IMG/VR virus record: IMGVR_UViG_3300017917_003044
Coordinates: 1-33,305 of that record
Reading direction: 5' to 3' (one strand)
Source of the DNA: a virus
DNA: 33,305 bases
Both the position numbers and the translations under genes were made by a program. Below are positions 2,811 through 21,923 of this stretch, piece after piece. Numbering within the stretch: the stretch's first letter is position 1; every line of letters begins with the position of its first letter. The notes under the pieces were generated by a model that saw only the letters and a list, made by a program, of their open reading frames with translations, searched no databases and was not told where the DNA came from.

Positions 2811-3371
2811 TTACCACGATCTGCATGACCAGTATCTGGCTTTCCATCGCGGACCAGGATTGTCGCAGTTGTGTCTTGCTCTAAAACTTCTACGTCTTGC
2901 AGGATTTGACTTTTTGATACGCATATTGGGATCACCAAATTCTACTTTTACAATATTACCATTTGGCTTTCTTACATACACTTTGCTTTTCTTAACATCG
3001 CCGGCCATTTTCTTGCCCAATGGTACAGTACGTCCACGATACTTGGCTTCTTCTAGGTCGTTGTCTGGCGATGTTTCAAACTTAACATCTTGATATACAT
3101 CTTCTTTGATGTTTTCGTCGCCATCAATTGGACTGGTAGAATCTTGGGCAGTGGCGTGCATGCGTGAATCTTCTATCAAGTATCCCACATGCGTTAAAAT
3201 TCTCATCATTGTGTCGTCTGCTTGGATTACAACACCATCTTCTACAATGTCAACTACATAACTTTCCAATACAATTTCTTCCCTGGCAATTTCAATGTCA
3301 AAACTATCACCAATTGCAGGATTTTCTGCTAGGTATTCGGATTCTTGCAAATAGTGTTTAAATGTTTTCAT
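2811..3371 (-). CDS. Conserved marine T4-like phage protein with capsid-targeting-like N-terminus and HNCDNPGP C-terminus
   Basis: A 186-residue protein. Its start MKTFKHYLQES is close to the capsid-targeting peptide of T4 internal proteins as I recall it (MKTYQEFIAE, cut after E), with L-Q-E before S. Residues 20-65 are acidic and beta-like. Residues 108-186 are basic and highly conserved in marine T4-like phages to my memory: AKYRGRTVPLGK, then FGDPNMRIKKSNPARR, then HNCDNPGPRWKARYWSCRSW, with Cys169, Cys183 and His167 as possible metal or structural residues. No function is known to me. The upstream gap is 19 bases with an AAAGA-type ribosome binding site. The basic C-terminus would suit a DNA-contacting protein inside the head, but that is inference. 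Confidence 0.75.
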   Translation of the reverse strand: MKTFKHYLQESEYLAENPAIGDSFDIEIAREEIVLESYVVDIVEDGVVIQADDTMMRILTHVGYLIEDSRMHATAQDSTSPIDGDENIKEDVYQDVKFETSPDNDLEEAKYRGRTVPLGKKMAGDVKKSKVYVRKPNGNIVKVEFGDPNMRIKKSNPARRRSFRARHNCDNPGPRWKARYWSCRSW

Positions 3372-3390: not shown

Positions 3391-5712
3391 TTACATTCCG
3401 GGTTTCAGTGGATTAAAAATAAAATCCTTGATACCTTGTACAATACTCTTGTTGGGGTTGTTGGTAGGATTCAGTTTTTGCTGTGGCGTTAGTGCATCTT
3501 GACCCACTGGGTACGGATTCTGTTGCCCACTGCCCTGTTCTTCAAGATCAGCCATTTCGTCTACTTCTTCGTCCCTACCTTTGTCATTAAATCTGATAGT
3601 GGCTGTGCGTGGACCGCTAACACGAGATTCCGGTTCGGGTGGCAAAGGTAATTCTTGCACCGATGGATCTTGTTTTTTTGGTGGAGGATAAGTGACACTC
3701 ACTCGCCCGGTGGAAGATGCCATTGGTTCTTGACCAGTGTCACGGTTCAAGTTTGCGGTGCTCATCAAGTTTGCGGTGCTCATGTCAGGGGTTGGTTCTT
3801 TTTTAGAGCGTATTGTTTTTGCTTCAGCCCCGGCCGGATTGGTTCCTACTACTGTAAACTTGGCATAATCACTGTCTAGATCATCTCTGAGCAATATGCT
3901 TTCCAACATGGCATCAAGATCAGGATCAATTATACCTTCGGCCATTGGGTTGTCACCTAGTCTTGCTTTCTTGGCAAACTGTTTTTTCTCTCTATTGAGA
4001 TCATTGCCTTGGCGTGTGATACTTGCCACAGTTTGATATTCTTCGTCGGGAGTGTTAACATAATGTGGTTTACGTTTTTTTGCTTCCTCTAGATCTTGTT
4101 CCATTATATCGTCGCTGCCAACCATGATAACTTCTGGTTTTGACATGCCCGAATGGTCATGATCATCATGCGGTCTCATGCCAGCCATTTTGAGCATTTG
4201 TAATAGCGCATCAGCTTGATCGCCTTGAGCACTAATGTTTACGCTACGAGTGCCATCGCTGCTCATGTTGGTACTAACATTCAGTCTATCTTCTGTATCC
4301 ATGCCCATGTCGCCACATTCTGTTAGGTCTTGTTCTTTTACTTCACTCTTTCTTGGACCAAATGGTTTGCGTGGATCCGCCGGTGTGTATTCAGGTGGAG
4401 GCATACCTATGCCGGTCATATATAGATCTGTGTATGCTTTGGCGCCTTTGGTGAGAAAATCTTTAGCTGCGTCTGCGCCACTTTGCATTTTATTAGCAGT
4501 TGATTTATCTTTGCCGTATAAGGCCGCTGCACCAGGACCGTCTTCGCTTAGGCCGGCTAATTCGGCCAATCTCTGTAATGTGTCATCACCTGCAACTTCA
4601 TGCACGGGTGCGCTTTCGCTCATGCCGCTGCCCATGTCTTGATAGAAACGCTCTTCAACCCATTGATACGGATCACCTTCGCGACCTTTTGCCACACCGT
4701 ATGGCATTTCACCTGTATCTAAATAATAGTCATATAAAGCATCATACAATGCATCTGCCATGTGACCCGTGTTCATGAAGTTTTTAGTTTCATGTTTGAA
4801 TCTATTGGCAATATGCTTCAATGCATTACCACCTTCGTCTAACATAACATCTTCTGTTACCTTTTGTGGTAAGCCTTTATGTTTTGTTTTGGCAAAATCT
4901 TTAGCGTCTTTCTTACTCATTGTTCGAGCCACTTTCTTTAATTCAGGGCTGGCGCCTTTGATCTTTTCGCCTTTTTGCATGGCATGTACCATGCCCATGA
5001 ATTTTTGTTGTTGCTTACTAACTGCTTTTTCGTTTAATGTCAGGCCACTTAGTCGCAACATGTCATTGAATGCTTCTGCTAATTCTTCTTCTAAATCTTC
5101 TTCTAGTTCATCCTCTGCCATTTGACCAAAGGCAGCCTGTCTTCCTAGTGATGTGCCACTGGTATTTTGAGCAGGAGCATTTAAGGCTGCTGTTGCAATT
5201 TGATCTGAAGTTTGTGCTGGTGGTGCTGCTGGTTGTGGCGCTGGTTGAGCGACAGCTGGTTGCATTGAACCAGCAATTGCATTTGCTTTACTGACGTCTT
5301 GGGCAGCTGATTGTGTAACACTAGCAGTTGGGGCAGTTTTTGTTGTGCCACCAATTGCACCTGCTTTGGCTGTGTCTAATGCAGCAGACTGCGTTGCACT
5401 AGCAGTTGGTGTTGGTTTACCGCCGTATGCGTATTGAACTTTGGTAGGATCATATCCACCACCATAAGTTTTTGTTTGTGGCGCTGGTTGAGCGGCTGCT
5501 GGTTGAGCGGCTGCTGGTTGAGCGGCAGCCGGGGCCGATGATGCAGCAACATCAGGAGCGGGATTAGTAAATGGAGTTCCACCAGCTGGTGGTGCATTTG
5601 CAGGTTTCGCTGTGCTGGTTGCTGGTACATTTGGATTTTTACCAAATGTTCCTACTGCTCCGGCCTGTGGTGGCGCAGCTTCTATTAAGTCTAATATTTT
5701 TCTGATTTCCAT
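3391..5712 (-). CDS. Large multidomain putative virion protein with DUF3008-like domain
   Basis: A 773-residue protein. It starts MEIRKILDLIEAAPP, giving L-I-E before A (residues 9-12), a prohead-protease-like site. Residues 30-185 are an Ala/Pro/Gln-rich linker with PAAAQ repeats. Residues 195-215 are strongly acidic. Residues 228-287 match the DUF3008 type (KQQQKFMGMVHAMQKGE ... MSKKDAKDFAKTKHKGLPQKV). Residues 318-360 (YDALYDYYLDTGEMPYGV) and 548-590 (PHYVNTPDEEYQTVASITRQ, then LGDNPM) are motifs I link to marine T4-like phage proteins of unknown role. LAG-type helices recur near 217, 383 and 505. Further LxE sites (462-465 and 540-543) could be processing points. The start overlaps the upstream stop as TAATG, and a late-promoter core lies at 5764-5770. 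A scaffold, core or internal head protein is likely but unproven. Confidence 0.7.
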   Translation of the reverse strand: MEIRKILDLIEAAPPQAGAVGTFGKNPNVPATSTAKPANAPPAGGTPFTNPAPDVAASSAPAAAQPAAAQPAAAQPAPQTKTYGGGYDPTKVQYAYGGKPTPTASATQSAALDTAKAGAIGGTTKTAPTASVTQSAAQDVSKANAIAGSMQPAVAQPAPQPAAPPAQTSDQIATAALNAPAQNTSGTSLGRQAAFGQMAEDELEEDLEEELAEAFNDMLRLSGLTLNEKAVSKQQQKFMGMVHAMQKGEKIKGASPELKKVARTMSKKDAKDFAKTKHKGLPQKVTEDVMLDEGGNALKHIANRFKHETKNFMNTGHMADALYDALYDYYLDTGEMPYGVAKGREGDPYQWVEERFYQDMGSGMSESAPVHEVAGDDTLQRLAELAGLSEDGPGAAALYGKDKSTANKMQSGADAAKDFLTKGAKAYTDLYMTGIGMPPPEYTPADPRKPFGPRKSEVKEQDLTECGDMGMDTEDRLNVSTNMSSDGTRSVNISAQGDQADALLQMLKMAGMRPHDDHDHSGMSKPEVIMVGSDDIMEQDLEEAKKRKPHYVNTPDEEYQTVASITRQGNDLNREKKQFAKKARLGDNPMAEGIIDPDLDAMLESILLRDDLDSDYAKFTVVGTNPAGAEAKTIRSKKEPTPDMSTANLMSTANLNRDTGQEPMASSTGRVSVTYPPPKKQDPSVQELPLPPEPESRVSGPRTATIRFNDKGRDEEVDEMADLEEQGSGQQNPYPVGQDALTPQQKLNPTNNPNKSIVQGIKDFIFNPLKPGM
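3748..3783. repeat. 18-bp perfect tandem duplication in the 773-residue gene
   Basis: Two exact, adjacent copies of an 18-base unit (3748-3765 and 3766-3783) encode the doubled peptide STANLM/STANLN near residue 645. It is in frame, so the gene stays intact; slippage could change the copy number. Confidence 0.85.
5486..5530. repeat. 15-bp tandem repeat, three copies
   Basis: The unit GGTTGAGCGGCTGCT occurs at 5486-5500 and 5501-5515, with a third slightly changed copy at 5516-5530. It encodes the AAAQP repeats of the linker in the 773-residue protein. The length is a multiple of three, so copy-number change keeps the frame. Confidence 0.85.
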
Positions 5713-8700
5713 TATTGTCTTCCCGCTAGTCGTAATATATCTAACAAATCTTTGTTTGATTCAGTATTTATGGTTTCATTGATCCTATCGCCGGATCGTG
5801 ATTGTTCATCCGTGTCCTTCTGCGAAAAAAGCTCTGGAGCAATAGTTTTCCAATCAACGTTTTGTCCTGGTGCATTGATTCTTGGATTCATTGGCTCTAT
5901 CCTATTATCCAGCTTATCAATGTCAACAATTTCCTCTCCGGCATCTAAGGCTGCTTGTTGTTGCTTAAAATCTTGCATGGCTTTTTTTATTTCGCTATCC
6001 GAAGGTGGTTCTGGTTCTAGTCTGGTTGACCCAAATTTATCACCGGCTGATTGCAACTGGTCAAAATTTTTCGTAATAGCCGGGGACAAAGTTCCTGTGT
6101 CTGCGCTTTTGTCTTTTGAACTCGTTGTTTTTCGTGCGATTTTATCTAATGTATCGCCAGGTTTAACTGTATAGTCTTTACCGTTTATTTTAAGTGTACT
6201 GCCTACCTGTATACGATTGACATCTTTAATGATGTCAGGATTTTGTTGCATAATTGCCTGTGCACCAGCACTGCCTTTATATGCTGCTCTAAGTCCAGCT
6301 TGATCTTTTGACAAAAGTTTTGTTACATCTTTATCTGCTGCAACTTTAGAAGTTTTATCCACTGCAGGCGGTTCCGTGCTCACTGCTTTCAATGATGCTG
6401 GTGCCAGAGATTGACTTTTTTGTTGCTGTTTTTCTCGTTCAAGTCTTTGTTTTTCTCGTTCAAGACTAGCTTTTTCACTTGCTTCTCGCTCGCGACTATA
6501 CTTCTCACCGGCCTCAATTTGGCGCTGCTCCATGTAGTCAGTGTATTCTTCCCAAGCTTTTGGATTGGTATCTGGGTCACCCGCCGGTACCTGCATTGGT
6601 AGATTTTTTTGTCTTGCTAGATCTCTTTCTCTTTTTTCTTTTTCTAAAGTGGCTTTGGTTAGTGGAGGTTCGTCTGGTTCAACAAAATCCTGAAACTTTT
6701 TTTGCAACACATCTGACAGTGCAGCAGCAGGAGGTAAAAGTGGAACAGCAGCGGCTACACTTGGTGTCCTAGGATCTGCCGCTGCCTGTGGACTTGTTAT
6801 ATCGGTAGCTTTTTGCAAATCAATTTTACTATCTTTTTTAGTTTTTGAGTCTGGTGCAACTGCTTTTTTCTTGTCGCCGAATACTTGTGAAACCAGTTCA
6901 CCTTTACCACCTAAGCTAGGGGGTAAAGTTCTTTGCAACTTGTCTAAGAAGGTTTCCTCTCCAGGTGTTGTAGGCTCCGCAGACTTGTCGTCTTTGGGCT
7001 CTGCCGCTACAGCTGGGCTACCAGGCTTCAATATGTCTTTGACATAATTTGCTATTTTGTTATATCCTTGCGGGTCTAAATGTACTTTCTGCTTGTCTTT
7101 TGTGGATGCCATGCCAAGATCCAGAATAGGCACATCTTTGTCAATTCCTTTAAGAATTGTTTGTCTCAGTGCTTCTCGTTGTGCCTTTTTGTCAGGATCA
7201 GGGCTTTCTGTAGGCAGCAAATATACCACTTGTAAACCTCTAGCACGGCCTGCGGCTATTAACTTGTTTAAATTATTTACTATAGCCTGATGATTTGATC
7301 TAGCAATATCATTGGCGCCACCACTGATTGTGACCACGCTACCTGGCGGAATAGTTTCAATGTTGGCCATATGCTGTTTAAATTGTACAGGATCTACAAC
7401 ACTGGCACCAACTTTAGACTTGTTGACCCAGTCTGAGCCATCTTTACCATTGCCGTATACAGCTACACCTTGTCCATGGCTATCGCCTACTGTGTAATAA
7501 CCCGGATCGTATCTTGGTATGAAGGACAAAAATGGATCTTGAAATTTATCGCCTAGTTTTCGCTCTTGTTGAGCTACTGTGTTTGCACCCGGTCTATAAT
7601 CAACTGATCCAAGATTACCAAACACACTTGCAAACACTCGTTGTCTATTTGGATCTTTGGAATACTGTTTCATTACTTCGCGGTATTTTTTTTCGCCGCC
7701 TACATCTCGATAGGCAGCAGGATTGGCAGCAGCAAAGTGCATCAAACCAGGTGGCACCAGTTTCAACATGCCTGCTATTTCTTGATCTATTCCAGGTAAA
7801 ATTATTTTGGCATTGGGATTGCTTTTTGGACCATCATAGGGTCTCAGCGCCGAGCCCTGATTGCCACCGGGACCAGTAATAGCTTGAAACTGAAATGGAG
7901 TATTTAACACTCCAAGAATATCTCCCTTTGCTGCTTTAGCTCTGTTTAGAATCACAGAAGCGACATGTGCTCGTTCCAATGGTTCTTTGCCTGATTCTGC
8001 ACCAACCGCTCGCAACAGTGCACCATATTCGCTGTCTGACATGGATCTACCAAGGTATTTCTCCATTGTCTGTCTTGGATTTAATTTCTTTTTTGTGTCT
8101 TCTAGTAGAAATTTGTTGTATTTTTCTAATAGACGCAGTTGTGTATCATACAAATCTTGTTCCGGCAAGAAGTCGGGTTGCATTATTTTTCCTTGGCTTG
8201 GCCGAGGTTTAAAATCTTTGTCTGTGCCCGGTCCTTTTTCTGGTCCTGGTTTTGGTGCAGCTTCTGGTCCGCCGCCACCGGCTGATGGTTTTTTGCCATC
8301 ACCATCTTTAGTGGTGCCTGGAACTTCTTTGTCTTTTGCTGCTTTACCGGGCTCAGGCTTTGGTGGCTCAGGCTTTGGCTCTGGTTTGGGTTCGGGTTTT
8401 GGCTCAGGCTTTGGTGGCTCGGGCTTTGGCTCTGGTTTGACTTCGGGCTTGACTTCGGGCTTGACTTCAGGTTTTACTGGTTCGGGTTCTTCGGGTTTTG
8501 TTGCGTCTGGCTTTGCTGGTTCTGGTGCAGGCTCCAGTCTGATTTCAGGCTCGTCAATTGGTAGTTCAGATGATTTTTTTTCTTTAGGGGGTGCTGAATC
8601 AGTTGCACTTGGCGCGGTTGTGTCTGGTACAATATCAGTGGTGTCAATCCAAGTGATTGCTTTGTCGTCTGCGTCTGGTGCTGCGCCGCCAGGAGTTTTA

Positions 8701-10181
8701 TCTTTGTCTTTTAAAGCTAACAAAGCTGCCAGCGCCGCTGCGGCATGTATGCCACCACTTTTGTATGCAGCCATTCTTTTTTCTTTGGCAGTTTCTCCAG
8801 GAATCTCATATCTCTTACCAGGCTCTGAAGACATTGGTGACTGTCTGTCTTTACCTCCAGGCGGTCTACCTTTTCCTCCGCCACCCGGAGCTCGACTGCT
8901 GCTCTTGCCATCTGGGCCATATCTCCACACCTTGGGTCCATCCTTAAACCCTTGTCCTGTTAGCAGTTCTTCTGCACGTTTTCTCGCCGCAGCCGAATCA
9001 GCTGATTGGCGACTGGCTGCAGATGGTTCCTTAATTGTAGAAGGTTCTCTGGCTGTAGATGGTTCCTTGGGGGCGGCTCGAACTACCGGCTCACCGTCTT
9101 TATTTCTTATCACACCTTGTCGGTCCATATAACCACCAGGTGGTATTTGTTGCGGTGGTTCTACTTTGGGTTTTTGTACAGCTTTAGGAACAACGGTTTG
9201 CCCATCAGGTCCGCGCCAAACTTTGGGTCTTCCGCTGCCGCTAATTGCAGAGGCAACACCACCACCACCAGCAAGCCCTTGAGCTATTACATCGTCGGGC
9301 GGAAGATCAACCCCAAACATATCTTTAAATGAAAAACTGCCACCGCCGCCGCCATCGGTCCATAGTGGAAGATATTGTTTCTCGCCGTGGCCACCCATTT
9401 GTTCGTCTAATTTTTTGCGAAGGCTTTCTTCAATTTGTTCTAGGGTGCGTACCGTTTTATTTTCTTTCATTGCTTTTTGTTTTCTTTTTGCAGTCAGCCG
9501 ATCGGCAATTTTTTGATCGCGTTCAATTCTCTGTCGCATTTCCCGTTGCTCTTGGTCACTTTTTTCCAGTCTTGCATCAGATTGTTTTAACCATTCAGCA
9601 CGCTCTGGTTCAGTTGATGACGGTGATGGACTTGACAATATGTCTAGGCCTTTTAGTCCAAGCCCTGCACCAATTAAACCTCCTCCCAATGCAGCTCCTG
9701 CCATGTTTGTTTTTGTCAAACCTGGCACGGCACGGGCAAGATCACCAATAGTGGCTGGCTCTGCTATGTCTAGGCCACGTCGTGCCAGTTCTGCTTGTCG
9801 CACAAGTCTTTCTCGTGCGGTCTGCTGCGGCGGAACTGCACTGGACTTACCAGTGTCTCGAGGTTCTGCTCGAGGTTGAAATCCTTGACCGGATAAAAAT
9901 TGTTCTGCTCGTGCTCGTGCATCTCTTGCTGCTCTTGCCTGATCTATTGTTACTCTTGGTTTTGAACTTCCGGCACCGCCTCGGCCTGCGCCTCCTGGAC
10001 CGATATCAATTTGCATTGGTGCACCACCTCTGCCACCTAAACCAAAGGCATCGGTGCCGCCTCCTAGTCCGCCTGATGGTGGACCTTCAAGTGGCGGTTG
10101 TGATTGTTCTCCGCCTCTACGCCAAACTTTGTATTGTTCAAATAGAGTGTCTTGAATCTGCTTAGAACCGCGTCGCGCCAT
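5712..10181 (-). CDS. Giant multidomain protein: SleB-like wall hydrolase, SGNH hydrolase and LysM-like segments
   Basis: A 1489-residue protein. Order: N-terminal MARRGSKQIQDTLFEQ (LFE-Q, capsid-targeting-like); modules (P)KVWRxGPDG near 18, 319 and 416 and RAExLLxGQGF near 91 and 402; Gly-rich hydrophobic segments at 161-182 and 476-491; charged helical region 195-260; K-P-E repeats 559-612; SleB/Hydrolase_2-like domain about 705-860 (LLRAVGAESG with putative catalytic Glu729, then HVASVILNRAK and FQFQAI), predicted to cleave peptidoglycan; SGNH/GDSL domain about 895-1050 (GDSHG with Ser901, GGAND with Asn957, HLDPQGY with His1034), possibly a deacetylase or esterase; charged coiled region 1170-1255; LysM-like pieces 1303-1353; C-terminal DILRLAGRQ. 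It starts one base after the upstream stop. A head-stored protein ejected to open the cell wall is plausible, by analogy with T7 internal protein gp16. A tail-associated hydrolase is the alternative. Confidence 0.8.
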   Translation of the reverse strand: MARRGSKQIQDTLFEQYKVWRRGGEQSQPPLEGPPSGGLGGGTDAFGLGGRGGAPMQIDIGPGGAGRGGAGSSKPRVTIDQARAARDARARAEQFLSGQGFQPRAEPRDTGKSSAVPPQQTARERLVRQAELARRGLDIAEPATIGDLARAVPGLTKTNMAGAALGGGLIGAGLGLKGLDILSSPSPSSTEPERAEWLKQSDARLEKSDQEQREMRQRIERDQKIADRLTAKRKQKAMKENKTVRTLEQIEESLRKKLDEQMGGHGEKQYLPLWTDGGGGGSFSFKDMFGVDLPPDDVIAQGLAGGGGVASAISGSGRPKVWRGPDGQTVVPKAVQKPKVEPPQQIPPGGYMDRQGVIRNKDGEPVVRAAPKEPSTAREPSTIKEPSAASRQSADSAAARKRAEELLTGQGFKDGPKVWRYGPDGKSSSRAPGGGGKGRPPGGKDRQSPMSSEPGKRYEIPGETAKEKRMAAYKSGGIHAAAALAALLALKDKDKTPGGAAPDADDKAITWIDTTDIVPDTTAPSATDSAPPKEKKSSELPIDEPEIRLEPAPEPAKPDATKPEEPEPVKPEVKPEVKPEVKPEPKPEPPKPEPKPEPKPEPKPEPPKPEPGKAAKDKEVPGTTKDGDGKKPSAGGGGPEAAPKPGPEKGPGTDKDFKPRPSQGKIMQPDFLPEQDLYDTQLRLLEKYNKFLLEDTKKKLNPRQTMEKYLGRSMSDSEYGALLRAVGAESGKEPLERAHVASVILNRAKAAKGDILGVLNTPFQFQAITGPGGNQGSALRPYDGPKSNPNAKIILPGIDQEIAGMLKLVPPGLMHFAAANPAAYRDVGGEKKYREVMKQYSKDPNRQRVFASVFGNLGSVDYRPGANTVAQQERKLGDKFQDPFLSFIPRYDPGYYTVGDSHGQGVAVYGNGKDGSDWVNKSKVGASVVDPVQFKQHMANIETIPPGSVVTISGGANDIARSNHQAIVNNLNKLIAAGRARGLQVVYLLPTESPDPDKKAQREALRQTILKGIDKDVPILDLGMASTKDKQKVHLDPQGYNKIANYVKDILKPGSPAVAAEPKDDKSAEPTTPGEETFLDKLQRTLPPSLGGKGELVSQVFGDKKKAVAPDSKTKKDSKIDLQKATDITSPQAAADPRTPSVAAAVPLLPPAAALSDVLQKKFQDFVEPDEPPLTKATLEKEKRERDLARQKNLPMQVPAGDPDTNPKAWEEYTDYMEQRQIEAGEKYSREREASEKASLEREKQRLEREKQQQKSQSLAPASLKAVSTEPPAVDKTSKVAADKDVTKLLSKDQAGLRAAYKGSAGAQAIMQQNPDIIKDVNRIQVGSTLKINGKDYTVKPGDTLDKIARKTTSSKDKSADTGTLSPAITKNFDQLQSAGDKFGSTRLEPEPPSDSEIKKAMQDFKQQQAALDAGEEIVDIDKLDNRIEPMNPRINAPGQNVDWKTIAPELFSQKDTDEQSRSGDRINETINTESNKDLLDILRLAGRQ
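5764..5771 (-). promoter_or_regulatory. Late-type promoter core (ATAAATAC) before the 773-residue gene
   Basis: The minus strand reads CATAAATACTG, the core shared with other genes here, 51 bases before the ATG at 5712 and inside the end of the upstream gene. It matches the T4-type late promoter TATAAATA at the AAATA core. Function is inferred from the pattern only. Confidence 0.4.
8346..8507. repeat. Degenerate tandem repeats encoding K-P-E-P/V linker
   Basis: Short in-frame repeats of 6 and 12 bases (for example a TTGACTTCGGGC unit repeated in a row) encode a K-P-E[PV] stretch of about 54 residues between the N-terminal region and the hydrolase domains. Such stretches usually form stiff, extended linkers. 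Confidence 0.8.
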
Positions 10182-10182
10182 G

Positions 10183-11655
10183 TTAGTCTTTGGGTTTCTT
10201 AAAGCTGAATTTTGCTCCGCCTCCGGTGCCCTTGGGACGACCTTTTTTCTTTTCTACTGGCTTGCCTTCGCCGTCCATTTCTTCGTCGTCGTCCTTCTGT
10301 GCCGAACCGCCGTAACGGGTTCCGGCTTTTTTACCAGCACCACCTTTAGATTCAGGACCACGTTTTTTCTCAAGATACTTTTGCATCTCTTCCCAGCCTT
10401 CACGCATGCTGCTGCGAGCTTCTTTTACTGGCGTACTGCCTGGTTTGTTAAGAAGATCCCACTGCGCATTGGCCGGAAGATTTGGATTGTATTTGGGATG
10501 CTTACCAACTTGTACTGCTTGGTCGTGGGTCATACGCTGATAACCTCTGTCATCAAAGTGCTTGCTGTATTGTGCGTTTGCTGACTGATTAGGGTCATAA
10601 TTTGGATGATTTTGAACCTTGGCAGCTCCAGATGGACTGAGTCGTAGGTTACCACGGTGATCAACAGGATCATCGCCACCAAGGAAATCATCATTGTCTT
10701 CTTTCACTTTGTAAGTTTTTCCATCAACTTTGAATTCAGGTGCTCCGGCGTCTCTTGCAGCATCCAATGCGCCGCTAAAAGCATTGCCTTCATCTTTTTG
10801 TTTTTTCTTGGCACCGGCAATTTTGTCTGCATAGGTGATTTTATCTTTAGGTTCTGCTAGTGCAGCAAAACTTTTTTGCTTAGGCGACAACATGTCTTCA
10901 TTATAATCACTTTCATCCATCTTGTCGTGCTTGGCACGAATCATAGCCATCTTTTCTTTGCTAGCACCTTCACGGCCGGCTTTTTGTAATGCTTTCATGC
11001 CAGTTTCGCCGTATTTCTTTTTGCCTAAGTATGCTTGTAAGCCACTTTCTTTCATATCTTTATCTTTATATGCTGCCCAACCCTCATCATCATCTTTATA
11101 ATTTGGGTCTGCTTTTTTTCTCTCTAACTCTGCTCGTCCAGCTGGGAACTTTTGCATTACACCTTCTATTCCGCGTACAAATGCTTTTCTACCTGGTTCT
11201 AATGCTGGACCAACATAGTTTCTCATTGCATAATCAATTTTTTCACCAGCCTTCTTTATTGGCCGCAGAATAGGATCATCGTCACCAGCTATATCTTCGC
11301 CTAGTTTCTTGCCTGCGGCTGCGGCTTTCTGGAACTTTTCCTTACCGTATTTTTTACGACCAATTGCTGCTGCAACCGCTTCAGGATTCTCTGCTGATCC
11401 ACCTTTCTTGATAGCGGCTACAGTTTTTTTGAAGCCCATGTACTTTTCGTTTAGTTGGCTTTCAACTCGAGCAACTGCTTCTGCAATCCCACCTTTAGCT
11501 TTGTCCTTGACAGCTTTCTTCATTGGTTCTTTTTTGTCGCCATCTTTGTCAATATCAATATAATCAGGTTTTGCCTTTTTGCCTTCTGTCAAATTTTGAC
11601 GCGGGGTCTCAAGGTTCTCAATTTTCTTTAAGATATCGTATATGTTGTTGCTCAT
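10183..11655 (-). CDS. Basic putative internal head protein with AT-hook-like C-terminus
   Basis: A 490-residue, very Lys-rich protein. L-T-E before G at residues 22-25 is a possible prohead-protease site. It contains motifs I link to marine phage proteins of unknown role: KPDYIDIDKDGDKKEPMKKA (29-48), FKKTVAAIKKGGSAENPEAV (75-94, followed by AAAIGRKKYGKEKF) and KSFAALAEPKDKITYADKIA (261-280). A repeat HPxY[DN]PNxxANAQ occurs at 350-362 and 386-398. The C-terminus has KKKGRPKGTGGGAKF (469-483), an AT-hook-like core (GRP flanked by basic residues), suggesting minor-groove DNA binding. Its start overlaps the upstream stop as ATGA, with AAAGGAAAG as ribosome binding site. A DNA-binding internal head protein fits, but is inferred. 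Confidence 0.7.
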   Translation of the reverse strand: MSNNIYDILKKIENLETPRQNLTEGKKAKPDYIDIDKDGDKKEPMKKAVKDKAKGGIAEAVARVESQLNEKYMGFKKTVAAIKKGGSAENPEAVAAAIGRKKYGKEKFQKAAAAGKKLGEDIAGDDDPILRPIKKAGEKIDYAMRNYVGPALEPGRKAFVRGIEGVMQKFPAGRAELERKKADPNYKDDDEGWAAYKDKDMKESGLQAYLGKKKYGETGMKALQKAGREGASKEKMAMIRAKHDKMDESDYNEDMLSPKQKSFAALAEPKDKITYADKIAGAKKKQKDEGNAFSGALDAARDAGAPEFKVDGKTYKVKEDNDDFLGGDDPVDHRGNLRLSPSGAAKVQNHPNYDPNQSANAQYSKHFDDRGYQRMTHDQAVQVGKHPKYNPNLPANAQWDLLNKPGSTPVKEARSSMREGWEEMQKYLEKKRGPESKGGAGKKAGTRYGGSAQKDDDEEMDGEGKPVEKKKGRPKGTGGGAKFSFKKPKD

Positions 11656-19552: not shown

Positions 19553-19602
19553 TAAAAGCTTATTATTTTGGGCAGATACGAGGTGCCTTTAAAAGGTTTT
19601 AC

Positions 19603-19610
19603 TATAAATA
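19603..19610 (+). promoter_or_regulatory. TATAAATA late-promoter match abutting plus-strand gene
   Basis: A perfect match to the T4 late consensus TATAAATA ends 5 bases before the ATG at 19616. If used, the transcript would start at about the ATG and be leaderless. It is divergent from the gp18 promoter, about 50 bases away. Confidence 0.45.
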
Positions 19611-19615
19611 GTGTT

Positions 19616-19960
19616 ATGGAAAGACCTCTTTGCACACTATGTCGTGGCAATTATGCTGCTATAAATTACCGCTTGGGTGATAAAACTTATTATAGAAAGA
19701 TGTGCGCTAGTTGTGCCAGAAAAGGCAAGCGTGTGAAAGAAATGCCAGGATGGACTAAAACTGGTTACAAGAAAAAAAACACATGCGAACGTTGCAATTT
19801 TATATCAAAAACAGCTCAACAAATTTTTGTTTTTTACATCGATGGCAACTTAAAAAATAACACATGGACTAATTTAAGAAGTGTGTGCGCCAATTGCAGA
19901 ATTGAATTAAATGCCAGCAAAACTACTTGGCGCGAGAGTACGTTGGTAGCAGACTATTAA
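19616..19960 (+). CDS. Small four-CxxC zinc protein, degenerate HNH-like
   Basis: A 114-residue protein from the ATG at 19616; an upstream TTG at 19568 is in frame but has no ribosome binding site. It has four CxxC pairs: CTLC (6-9), CASC (31-34), CERC (56-59) and CANC (93-96), enough for two zinc sites. The C-terminal half has the HNH-endonuclease frame DGNLKNNTWTNLRSVCANC, but the usual catalytic His pair before DGN is Phe-Tyr and the His after the last Cys is Arg, so cleavage activity is doubtful. Similar small HNH-like genes are frequent between T4-like phage genes. Its 3' end overlaps the end of gp1 on the other strand by 38 bases. A DNA-binding protein or decayed homing-type endonuclease is the best reading. 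Confidence 0.7.
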   Translation: MERPLCTLCRGNYAAINYRLGDKTYYRKMCASCARKGKRVKEMPGWTKTGYKKKNTCERCNFISKTAQQIFVFYIDGNLKNNTWTNLRSVCANCRIELNASKTTWRESTLVADY

Positions 19961-20608: not shown

Positions 20609-20632
20609 AATATATATAATCTTAAAAGTCAA
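20604..20632 (-). promoter_or_regulatory. Candidate sigma70-type promoter for gp1
   Basis: On the minus strand TTGACT (20632-20627) and TAAAAT (20609-20604) are separated by 17 bases, each one base from consensus. The predicted start near 20597 would produce a message lacking the 5' arm of the hairpin, leaving the AGGGGG ribosome binding site open. Confidence 0.5.
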
Positions 20633-21003
20633 ACACCGTATTTGTTCTTTTTAGGTTTAGCAACTGGGCTATCCTTGTTGATGGTTGGTCCTTCTTGACT
20701 GCGCAAATCGCCGTGATTCATGTCTTCATGATCGGCATGAACTGCTTTATAAGCCAACTTTAGCATGTCCTGTTCTTCCTGGCTATAAGGAGCAGTTAGT
20801 TTCCATTTGCCCAGCCAAGACTCTTCATCAACTTCGGGCATGGTTTTACCATCTGTGGCAGCCAATGCCAAACCTAAACGATATAAAGTATAATCGCTAT
20901 TCCATTTTTTGCCGTCTGTAAATTTATTCAAGCCGCGTGTGGCTCTTCTTGCACGATCAGGTAATGTGCCTTTAGTTTCTATTATAATATCTTTTATTTT
21001 CAT
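20629..21003 (-). CDS. Small conserved marine T4-like phage protein
   Basis: A 124-residue protein; the start at 21003 is chosen because it forms a TAATG overlap with the upstream stop, rather than the in-frame ATG 15 bases earlier inside that gene. It begins MKIKDIIIETKG, giving I-I-E before T, loosely like the prohead-protease site. The middle (RRATRGLNKFTDGKKWNSDY, then LALAATDGKT and WLGKWKLTAPYSQEE) and the end (HGDLRSQEGP ... SPVAKPKKNKYGV) match a pattern I recall from conserved hypothetical proteins of marine T4-like phages. No catalytic motif is seen. Coupling to the neck-like gene suggests a virion or assembly role. Confidence 0.7.
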   Translation of the reverse strand: MKIKDIIIETKGTLPDRARRATRGLNKFTDGKKWNSDYTLYRLGLALAATDGKTMPEVDEESWLGKWKLTAPYSQEEQDMLKLAYKAVHADHEDMNHGDLRSQEGPTINKDSPVAKPKKNKYGV

Positions 21004-21923
21004 TAGCCTATCACCCACGTCATTGGATACGATCCGTCCACATAATCTTTTAATTCTTGTTCTAATTTTTCCATTTCCGCTTGTGCTTCGCCTTTTAATG
21101 TAGCACCATTGAGTTGTGTGCCGCCTTGCGGTCCTGCAATTGATGCAAACTTTTCTCTCGCTTCGCCTACGATTCGTTTAGCAAAACTGTATGCGTATTC
21201 TTGTATCCACGGAAACGCTTGATAATCATTCAACAACATGCTGTCTGGTTTGTAGTTATACAAATGCAGCAACACATCTTCGAAATCATTGGGATTTGCA
21301 TTTGCTCCCGCGAAAGGGATTTTACGAATCAAAGTTAGTTTTTTCGTTGTCTTGTTGAATGTAAAATTCAAATAGCCGCCAAACATACGCATCGCCAGCT
21401 TCTGATAATCAACAAATAGTTCGTAATTTAGTAGGCCGCCTACTCGCCCTGCTACTAACATATAGGTATTTAAATACCCCGAAGCAAACGGTTCAAATTG
21501 ACTTGCAGTAGTGCCCGAAACAGATCCAATACCACGGCGGTATGCAGCTCTTACTTCCATTACGATGTCGGGTAAAATAATTTCTTGTGTTTCAGGAAAT
21601 AGTTTCAAAAAAGCATAGCTTTCTTCTTGGCTGTTGCTGGCTCGCTGTCTATACTTCAGTAAGGCTTGATCAATAGCCATTTCATAGTGCTCTTTATCGA
21701 GCTCAACATCCACAATACCATCGCCCAGTCGCATTCTTATATAGTCTGTTATTGCAGATCTACGCTTGTGAAGCGATTCTAGCCATTCGGCATTTTCGTC
21801 GTACTCAATATGGCCTACACCTGAGCCAGTAGCAGGGTTGTAAAGGCTATCAGTTTTTAATGTACCGTTGGCATTAAAATAAGTAGTATCTGCGACAACA
21901 TTGCCAGTAAAAGGATTGGACAT
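21003..21923 (-). CDS. Neck/connector-like structural protein (gp13-like)
   Basis: A 306-residue protein, close in length to T4 neck protein gp13 (about 309). The segment IRMRLGDGIVDVELDKEHYE, followed by MAIDQALLKYRQR, has the RLG - V - AI..AL..Y pattern of the gp13/connector helical core. YAFLKLFPETQEIILPDIVM, VRAAYRRG and the FGGYLNFTFNKTTKKLTLIR stretch follow. The first 35 residues are Asn/Thr-rich and probably flexible. This family is common in marine T4-like phages and probably sits at the head-tail joint. I am sure it is structural and less sure that it is the gp13 orthologue. A late-type promoter overlaps the stop codon of the gene before it. Confidence 0.6.
   Translation of the reverse strand: MSNPFTGNVVADTTYFNANGTLKTDSLYNPATGSGVGHIEYDENAEWLESLHKRRSAITDYIRMRLGDGIVDVELDKEHYEMAIDQALLKYRQRASNSQEESYAFLKLFPETQEIILPDIVMEVRAAYRRGIGSVSGTTASQFEPFASGYLNTYMLVAGRVGGLLNYELFVDYQKLAMRMFGGYLNFTFNKTTKKLTLIRKIPFAGANANPNDFEDVLLHLYNYKPDSMLLNDYQAFPWIQEYAYSFAKRIVGEAREKFASIAGPQGGTQLNGATLKGEAQAEMEKLEQELKDYVDGSYPMTWVIG

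Follow-up and report, generated by a model that had tools for sequence, protein, structure and literature searches.

In bacteriophage T4, the targeting sequence of the internal proteins stays constant and their cargo varies (PMC3012670). The protease gp21 cuts after L/I-x-E, the first 10 residues of IPIII are sufficient for packaging, and Alt is cut at its C-terminus as well (PMC9026906). Wall enzymes, including members of PF07486, have been described in the polyvalent proteins, multidomain phage proteins proposed to be packaged in the capsid (Iyer et al. 2017; PMC5512222), and mosaic wall hydrolases are known from the ejection proteins of podoviruses (PMC8954989). Here, we describe a 1489-residue phage protein that carries a SleB-like wall-hydrolase domain and an SGNH hydrolase domain in one chain, and compare the locus that encodes it with these systems.

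Results

A 1489-residue protein in an uncultured jumbo phage

The analyzed stretch of DNA, referred to as the window, comprises 33,305 nucleotides (a 33-kb IMG/VR fragment) and comes from an uncultured jumbo T4-like myovirus. By sheath protein, the nearest phages are PA5oct (40% identity, 81% covered) and Atu_ph07/Phosso (45–47% identity, 63–64% covered). A preliminary description, made from the sequence alone, had placed an open reading frame for 1489 residues at 5712–10181, and this gene is real: a single open frame on the minus strand with an ATG start and 1489 codons, surrounded by genes for the sheath, two tube proteins, head closure, a connector, and a sheath-stabilizer. The gene, its flanks, and the parts of the chain outside the enzyme domains are as follows.

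10183–11655, minus strand: 490-aa protein (MSNNIYDIL..), conserved upstream neighbor and upstream flank of the slot
5712–10181, minus strand: gene of the 1489-aa protein, whose place between the 490-aa and 773-aa genes (the slot) is kept in relatives
3391–5712, minus strand: 773-aa protein with a DUF3008-like part and LAG-type motifs (profiles, motifs), downstream flank of the slot
9636–9710, minus strand: first Gly/Ala-rich hydrophobic segment, residues 158–182 (hydropathy)
8712–8774, minus strand: second Gly/Ala-rich hydrophobic segment, residues 470–490 (hydropathy)
8337–8519, minus strand: K-P-E tract, residues 555–615 (sequence)
6117–6299, minus strand: LysM-like segment, residues ~1295–1355 (PF01476)

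The two Gly/Ala-rich segments and the K-P-E region had been noted before and were found again, together with a third Gly/Ala-rich hydrophobic segment at residues 1141–1159. Newly recognized are an internal targeting-like peptide, a conserved C-terminal peptide, and the LysM-like segment, for which the PF01476 profile passes its curated cut-off, but with a best stretch that spans 16 of 43 profile positions.

The whole protein gave no match by tblastn against phage records and no relative in direct scans of viral contigs, domain-level tblastn among phages returned chance matches only, and the two-domain (SleB-like plus SGNH) segment was not found in the contigs of 41 sheath relatives. Relatives were reached solely via scans with neighboring genes, which brought in more than 200 loci. 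With the SleB-like or the SGNH domain as query, genome-contig scans yielded no relatives in bacteria, so that the domains offer no clue to the host. The set analyzed below (n = 24) is made up of the window protein, 22 slot proteins of full length, and L215, which is related but encoded elsewhere in its own contig. Cysteine is absent from 23 slot proteins (19,167 residues) and from the window protein (1489 residues); the cysteine content of neighboring proteins ranges from 0 to 1.5%.

A remote SleB-like domain next to an SGNH domain

Two enzyme domains lie side by side in the chain.

7587–8069, minus strand: SleB-like (Hydrolase_2-like) domain, residues ~705–865, with catalytic Glu729 (profiles, conservation, AF2 fold)
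7026–7514, minus strand: SGNH hydrolase domain, residues ~890–1052, with Ser901, Asn957, and His1034 (PF13472, conservation, AF2 fold)

SleB is a lytic transglycosylase. That the first domain is SleB/Hydrolase_2-like and uses Glu729 had been proposed in the preliminary description, and the proposal is borne out by profiles, the predicted fold, and the conservation of this residue. The TIGR02869 SleB profile matched the domain at 3e-4 and an endolysin PHROG at 8e-4. When a two-row profile of the domain was compared with the PDB, the sole matches were the SleB entries 4fet and 4f55 (E 0.24 and 0.39, respectively), in which Glu729 aligns onto the SleB catalytic Glu (AE/ES motif); this residue is invariant in four of four homologues. 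Homologous domains of other phages match PF07486 below the cut-off (2.9e-4 and 0.0024), scoring 13.1 bits in L118, 21.9 in L237, and 18.9 in L239 against a curated cut-off of 27. Since the window domain does not reach this cut-off, we name it SleB-like and do not file it as a member of PF07486.

The AF2 model of the domain is of medium quality (pLDDT 66, pTM 0.71); a prediction from two alignment rows missed the SleB domain, and a four-row alignment mostly mended it. In a structure comparison, SleB entries alone reached Z ≥ 2, with a modest Z of 6.6 over 100 aligned residues at 3.6 Å. Of the checks proposed at the outset for this domain, structure prediction supports it through SleB-only structural matches; the HMM search with PF07486 found no match in the window protein. 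The SleB-like assignment is well supported but remote.

The identity of the SGNH domain is solid. PF13472 exceeds its cut-off of 32.9 bits both for the whole protein (E 7.6e-8, 33.5 bits) and for the domain scanned alone (38.2 bits), and the residues named earlier, Ser901, Asn957, and His1034, do not vary among six homologues, nor does a Gly between the first two SGNH blocks (six sequences). The AF2 model of this part, mostly at pLDDT 80–92, matches GDSL/SGNH esterases with Z 10–11.7 over ~150–160 residues, including lipases, sialate O-acetylesterases, and PatB. Missing folds or unconserved catalytic residues had been named as grounds for rejecting the two-domain assignment; both folds are predicted, and Glu729 and the Ser/Asn/His residues are conserved.

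The last SGNH block of the window lacks the usual Asp three residues before the His and reads QKVH. The same Asp is missing in three relatives (QQVH or MNLH) and present in others, as DGVH or DDVH. The position varies in some known SGNH enzymes, and we therefore read the absence of the Asp in the window as a variant, in which a Ser-His dyad may operate or the acid may lie elsewhere.

SGNH domains recur beside unrelated wall enzymes

In all fully readable SGNH relatives, the same chain also holds an identified or candidate peptidoglycan enzyme. The SGNH domain is joined to a SleB-like domain in the window and L118, and to a GH104 domain in L116, L154, L142, L215, and L233. The C-terminal domain that accompanies it in L236 looks GH104-like by eye and is not counted as proven, because the PDB search gave a weak match, with a phage hub at E 0.021; the SGNH chain of L232 is cut by the contig end. 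On a 259-kb contig (L237:4953–6966), tandem genes, both beginning with targeting-like peptides, encode SGNH plus a PF07486-like domain in reverse order, and SGNH plus VanY. As a separate observation, the gene at L239:5563–6441 joins a T4 gp5-type OB domain to a SleB-like domain in place of the T4 lysozyme, and, by its sequence, appears to encode a tail lysozyme with another enzyme fold.

The recurrence of SGNH with three proven unrelated cutters argues that it acts on the wall. The preliminary description had suggested that one activity cuts glycan chains or crosslinks and the other removes acetyl or ester groups that block cutting; cooperation of this kind is favored by the adjacency of SGNH to the unrelated SleB-like, GH104, and VanY domains, but the acetyl or ester substrate is one that we infer. 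We also considered that the protein is packaged in the head and its enzymes act elsewhere, with SGNH directed at capsule, LPS, or lipid, or with the protein serving host takeover or phage exclusion. SGNH substrates are broad, as the span of structural matches from lipases to PatB illustrates, and the T4 internal proteins counter restriction rather than aid wall entry (PMC3012670). Set against the recurrence of SGNH beside unrelated peptidoglycan enzymes and the presence of LysM, a wall-binding module, such a role away from the wall seems unlikely.

Both SGNH copies of L237, which are remote, lack the Asn and the His, and a binding role is possible there. Taken together with the Asp missing from the window, this means that SGNH catalysis is not certain, and both observations would fit an SGNH domain that is enzymatically dead and serves as a wall-binding part, with the SleB-like domain as the sole cutter. 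We consider this improbable given that the Ser, Gly, Asn, and His blocks are intact in the window and in its five nearest relatives.

Enzymes are exchanged in a conserved slot

In 22 relatives, the slot is occupied by one large protein of a common plan. It begins with a T4-style N-terminus (L/I-x-E), followed by Gly/Ala- and Pro-rich stretches; a prohead-protease-like site comes next, directly ahead of a wall hydrolase and, usually, a C-terminal peptide of the type ..DILRLAGR. Nearly all of the 24 proteins have a recognizable wall-hydrolase domain, yet its type differs. Nine have SLT (PF01464), and two more match it weakly; L139, which has no Pfam match, was grouped by eye with these two. Six have GH19 (PF00182). 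Four have a lambda-type GH104 lysozyme, namely L116 by database matches (PDB 1am7/3d3d at E 2e-25, and also the endolysin phrog_90) and three others by sequence resemblance. Two, the window and L118, have the SleB-like domain.

When mapped onto a tree built from the neighboring 208-aa protein, enzyme type requires 11 changes, compared with a mean of 12.4 for shuffled labels, so that it is about as scattered as at random; the closest kin carry different enzymes. By BLAST, L113 aligns with residues 1–731 and 1017–1488 of the window protein, yet its enzyme is SLT; residues 2–984 of L118 align with window residues 243–1110; and L116, L154, and L142 match the window protein in the SGNH part alone. 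This modular pattern indicates that the enzyme is exchanged and the ends stay.

Slot proteins range from 496 to 1386 aa in the relatives (496–1489 aa including the window), and the sheath and tube genes of these length-varying phages are mostly 70–90% identical to those of the window. Such variation would be unexpected for a tape measure, and bears on the possibility that the protein is a tail component, either a tape measure or hub-associated, that carries a wall hydrolase in the manner of P1 Sit or T4 gp5. The gene does sit in the sheath-tube gene cluster, SLT-bearing tape measures such as P1 Sit are known (PMC9024508), and a homologous SleB-like domain is carried on the gp5-type OB fold of L239. 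However, profile scans of the window protein found no OB fold or tape-measure match, and its ends are of the head-targeting type described below, rendering a tail component rather unlikely.

The slot of PA5oct, the best-studied relative used, is without an enzyme, which weighs against the packaged-lysin reading proposed below. The genes at the corresponding place encode gp281 and gp282, both annotated from mass spectrometry as virion proteins, and gp281 bears LAG-type motifs (NDILRLAGVQAVKES). In one pair of near-identical relatives, the slot gene is open in L030:19478–21430 (650 aa) and broken in L051:19478–21430 (257 + 264 aa), a difference that could be either a sequencing error or a recent inactivation.

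Targeting-like ends and predicted cleavage sites

The window protein contains four short elements that resemble targeting peptides or sites of a prohead protease (a slash marks the predicted cut).

10137–10181, minus strand: capsid-targeting-like peptide MARRGSKQIQDTLFE/Q with an L-x-E end, residues 1–15 (motif enrichment, T4 rule)
9402–9455, minus strand: internal targeting-like peptide TVRTLEQIEESLRKKLDE/Q, residues 243–260 (BLAST homology to the N-terminus of L118)
8100–8144, minus strand: predicted protease site TQLRLLEKYNKFLLE/D before the enzyme, residues 680–694 (L/I/V-x-E enrichment)
5715–5774, minus strand: conserved C-terminal peptide TINTESNKDLLDILRLAGRQ, with an I-N-E/T site before it, residues 1470–1489 (LAG-type tail counts)

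The packaging-like N-terminus noted in the preliminary description ends in L-x-E at residue 15 (LFE15/Q), and the motif is enriched in the slot proteins. L/I/V-x-E occurs within residues 2–25 of 22 of the 24 proteins (9.6 in shuffles, maximum 18 in 5000 trials), the strict form L/I-x-E in 18 of 24 (7.8, maximum 17), and L/I/V-x-E again in the 45-residue stretch preceding the enzyme in 18 of 19 proteins (11.4 in shuffled segments, p 0.0004; 3.5 at random positions), although these statistics overstate independence because the sequences are related and L/I-x-E is short. The site before the enzyme of the window reads FLLE694/D. Since residues 243–260 correspond by homology to the true N-terminus of L118, the window protein resembles a fusion of two cargo proteins.

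At the other end, the window carries the LAG peptide ETINTESNKDLLDILRLAGRQ. LAG-type C-terminal tails are found in 20 of the 24 proteins and in 59 of 1245 other ORFs, a count that includes a false-positive class (the dNMP kinase ends in LLLAGFRAK). The peptide is also present on a protein whose gene neighbors that of the S77 head protease, and in a family of ~480–980 aa. The former, a 368-aa protein (L085:2099–3205, L083:258–1364) in the place of the T4 gp22 scaffold, matches phrog_10922 and ends in a RLAGLK-type peptide like the slot proteins. The S77 (gp21-family) head protease itself is present in the contigs of five relatives and not within the 33-kb window, which is a fragment.

Several neighboring genes share an L/I-x-E type N-terminus, which is lacking in the sheath, tube, head-closure, and connector genes. 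Targeting-like N-termini of this type are encoded, all on the minus strand, at 50–958, 1657–2112, 2109–2798, 2811–3371, 3391–5712, 10183–11655, and 20629–21018; the peptides in the neighboring cluster are MRIREIILE, MSDPRFFRRYLDMLDE, MDPRFFRQYLDILHE, MKTFKHYLQE, MEIRKILDLIE, and MKIKDIIIE. By this motif, these genes probably encode several more head-packaged proteins.

Three further observations concern the surroundings. The 186-aa protein (2811–3371, minus strand) terminates in a strikingly conserved peptide, RSFRARHNCDNPGPRWKARYWSCRSW, which hardly changes even between distant relatives and is found again at the end of a 622-aa protein in L233. A staphylococcal-nuclease homologue (1213–1647; SNase, E 1.4e-10) with a secretion-signal-like N-terminus sits in the cargo gene cluster and is retained in relatives. 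Between the genes for the sheath and the dNMP kinase, the opposite (plus) strand carries an ORF (19568–19960) with Cys-pair motifs and an HNH-like look, possibly a homing endonuclease.

The ends also bear on whether the protein is a lysis enzyme, that is, an endolysin with an oversized N-terminus, as the weak endolysin PHROG matches and the enzyme families, which are typical for endolysins, might suggest. To our knowledge, endolysins are normally short and without such propeptides; the large size of the protein, its packaging-type ends, its place among virion genes, and the similar N-termini of its neighbors make this reading very improbable.

Discussion

We conclude that the 1489-aa protein is probably an exchangeable ejection lysin that is packaged in the head and matured by a protease, with SGNH as an accessory wall esterase. 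This interpretation builds on two folds with conserved catalytic residues, constant ends, enzyme swapping, the enrichment of site motifs, and a protease in relatives, all of which were computed. The packaging, cleavage, and ejection of the protein, its substrates, both activities, and their cooperation are suggested by motifs, context, and analogy. In the mechanism we propose, the protein would be made late and drawn into the prohead core by its N-terminal, and perhaps its C-terminal, peptide. A gp21-like prohead protease would then trim it at L/I-x-E, with cuts predicted after Glu15, Glu260, Glu694, and Glu1469, freeing a SleB-SGNH-LysM enzyme of ~775 residues from a disordered pro-region. 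The freed enzyme would exit the head along with the DNA and open the host wall for genome entry: the SleB-like domain would cut glycan strands, the SGNH domain would strip ester groups, most likely wall-sugar O-acetyl, that would otherwise block cutting, and the LysM-like part could anchor the enzyme on the wall.

If correct, the principle of constant signal and variable cargo, known in T4 for anti-restriction proteins, would extend to wall-opening enzymes of jumbo phages. The slot would supply a natural set of interchangeable head-packaged lysins whose borders can be mapped, as well as pairs of cutter and esterase that might be active on modified walls, and the short C-terminal peptide may constitute a second head-targeting signal. 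More tentatively, and with less than even confidence, we suggest that this jumbo-phage lineage maintains a dedicated exchange locus for a head-packaged lysin. Constant targeting ends and a pro-region would frame a single wall enzyme, drawn from at least four unrelated types and released by the prohead protease in the head, some versions having an added SGNH esterase for modified (for example, O-acetylated) walls. Such a locus would record the wall chemistry of the hosts and, with it, an arms race over wall modification waged with proteins that are co-delivered with the DNA.

The literature searched, which was covered in part, yielded no head-packaged protein with SleB and SGNH domains. Within it, we found no description of the SleB-SGNH pairing, of a slot that swaps at least four unrelated wall enzymes behind constant ends, of a predicted release site before the enzyme, or of the shared C-terminal peptide.

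Each enzyme domain departs from its family in certain respects. The SleB-like domain shares the fold, catalytic Glu, and flanking motifs of SleB/Hydrolase_2 (PF07486, TIGR02869), but is below curated cut-offs, phage-borne, and fused to SGNH. The SGNH domain has the fold and the GDS, GxND, and catalytic His blocks of the SGNH/GDSL family (PF13472; PatB, sialate O-acetylesterases), but lacks the DxxH Asp and is fused to wall hydrolases.

Like the polyvalent proteins, the window protein is large and multidomain and includes a wall enzyme; packaging in the capsid and processing into units, proposed for the polyvalent proteins, are predicted for it as well. It appears to differ in having wall-directed domains only, where polyvalent proteins combine disparate activities in one chain: its two enzyme folds both plausibly act on the wall. 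Its processing, moreover, is predicted to proceed via a prohead protease, and scans against Pfam, NCBIfam, and PHROGs found no processing metallopeptidase domain, which is frequent in polyvalent proteins. SGNH is absent from the polyvalent-protein paper (PMC5512222).

The layout had first been likened to ejected internal proteins such as T7 gp16. The idea of an ejected internal protein draws strong, though indirect, support from the L/I-x-E N-terminus, the protease in relatives, the shared C-terminal peptide, and the swappable slot, but kinship with gp16 does not hold: profile and tblastn searches found no gp16-type match in the window protein. The similarity is that gp16, an internal virion protein as the window protein is proposed to be, carries a wall-cutting domain, and that such domains are exchanged among ejection proteins and among phages. 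In contrast, the window phage is a contractile-tailed jumbo phage with different enzyme families and no sign of a gp14/gp15 partner set, and on sequence grounds gp16 appears to be an analogue, not a relative.

A further parallel is with T4 IPI, IPII, IPIII, and Alt, which share with the slot proteins a short N-terminal peptide ending in L/I-x-E and variable cargo with a conserved targeting end. C-terminal processing, as in Alt, is possible in the window protein, and a gp21-family (S77) protease is present in relatives. The slot proteins differ in being much larger and in having an extra predicted site before the enzyme and a shared C-terminal LAG peptide, and their cargo consists of wall hydrolases, whereas that of T4 consists of anti-restriction proteins or an ADP-ribosyltransferase.
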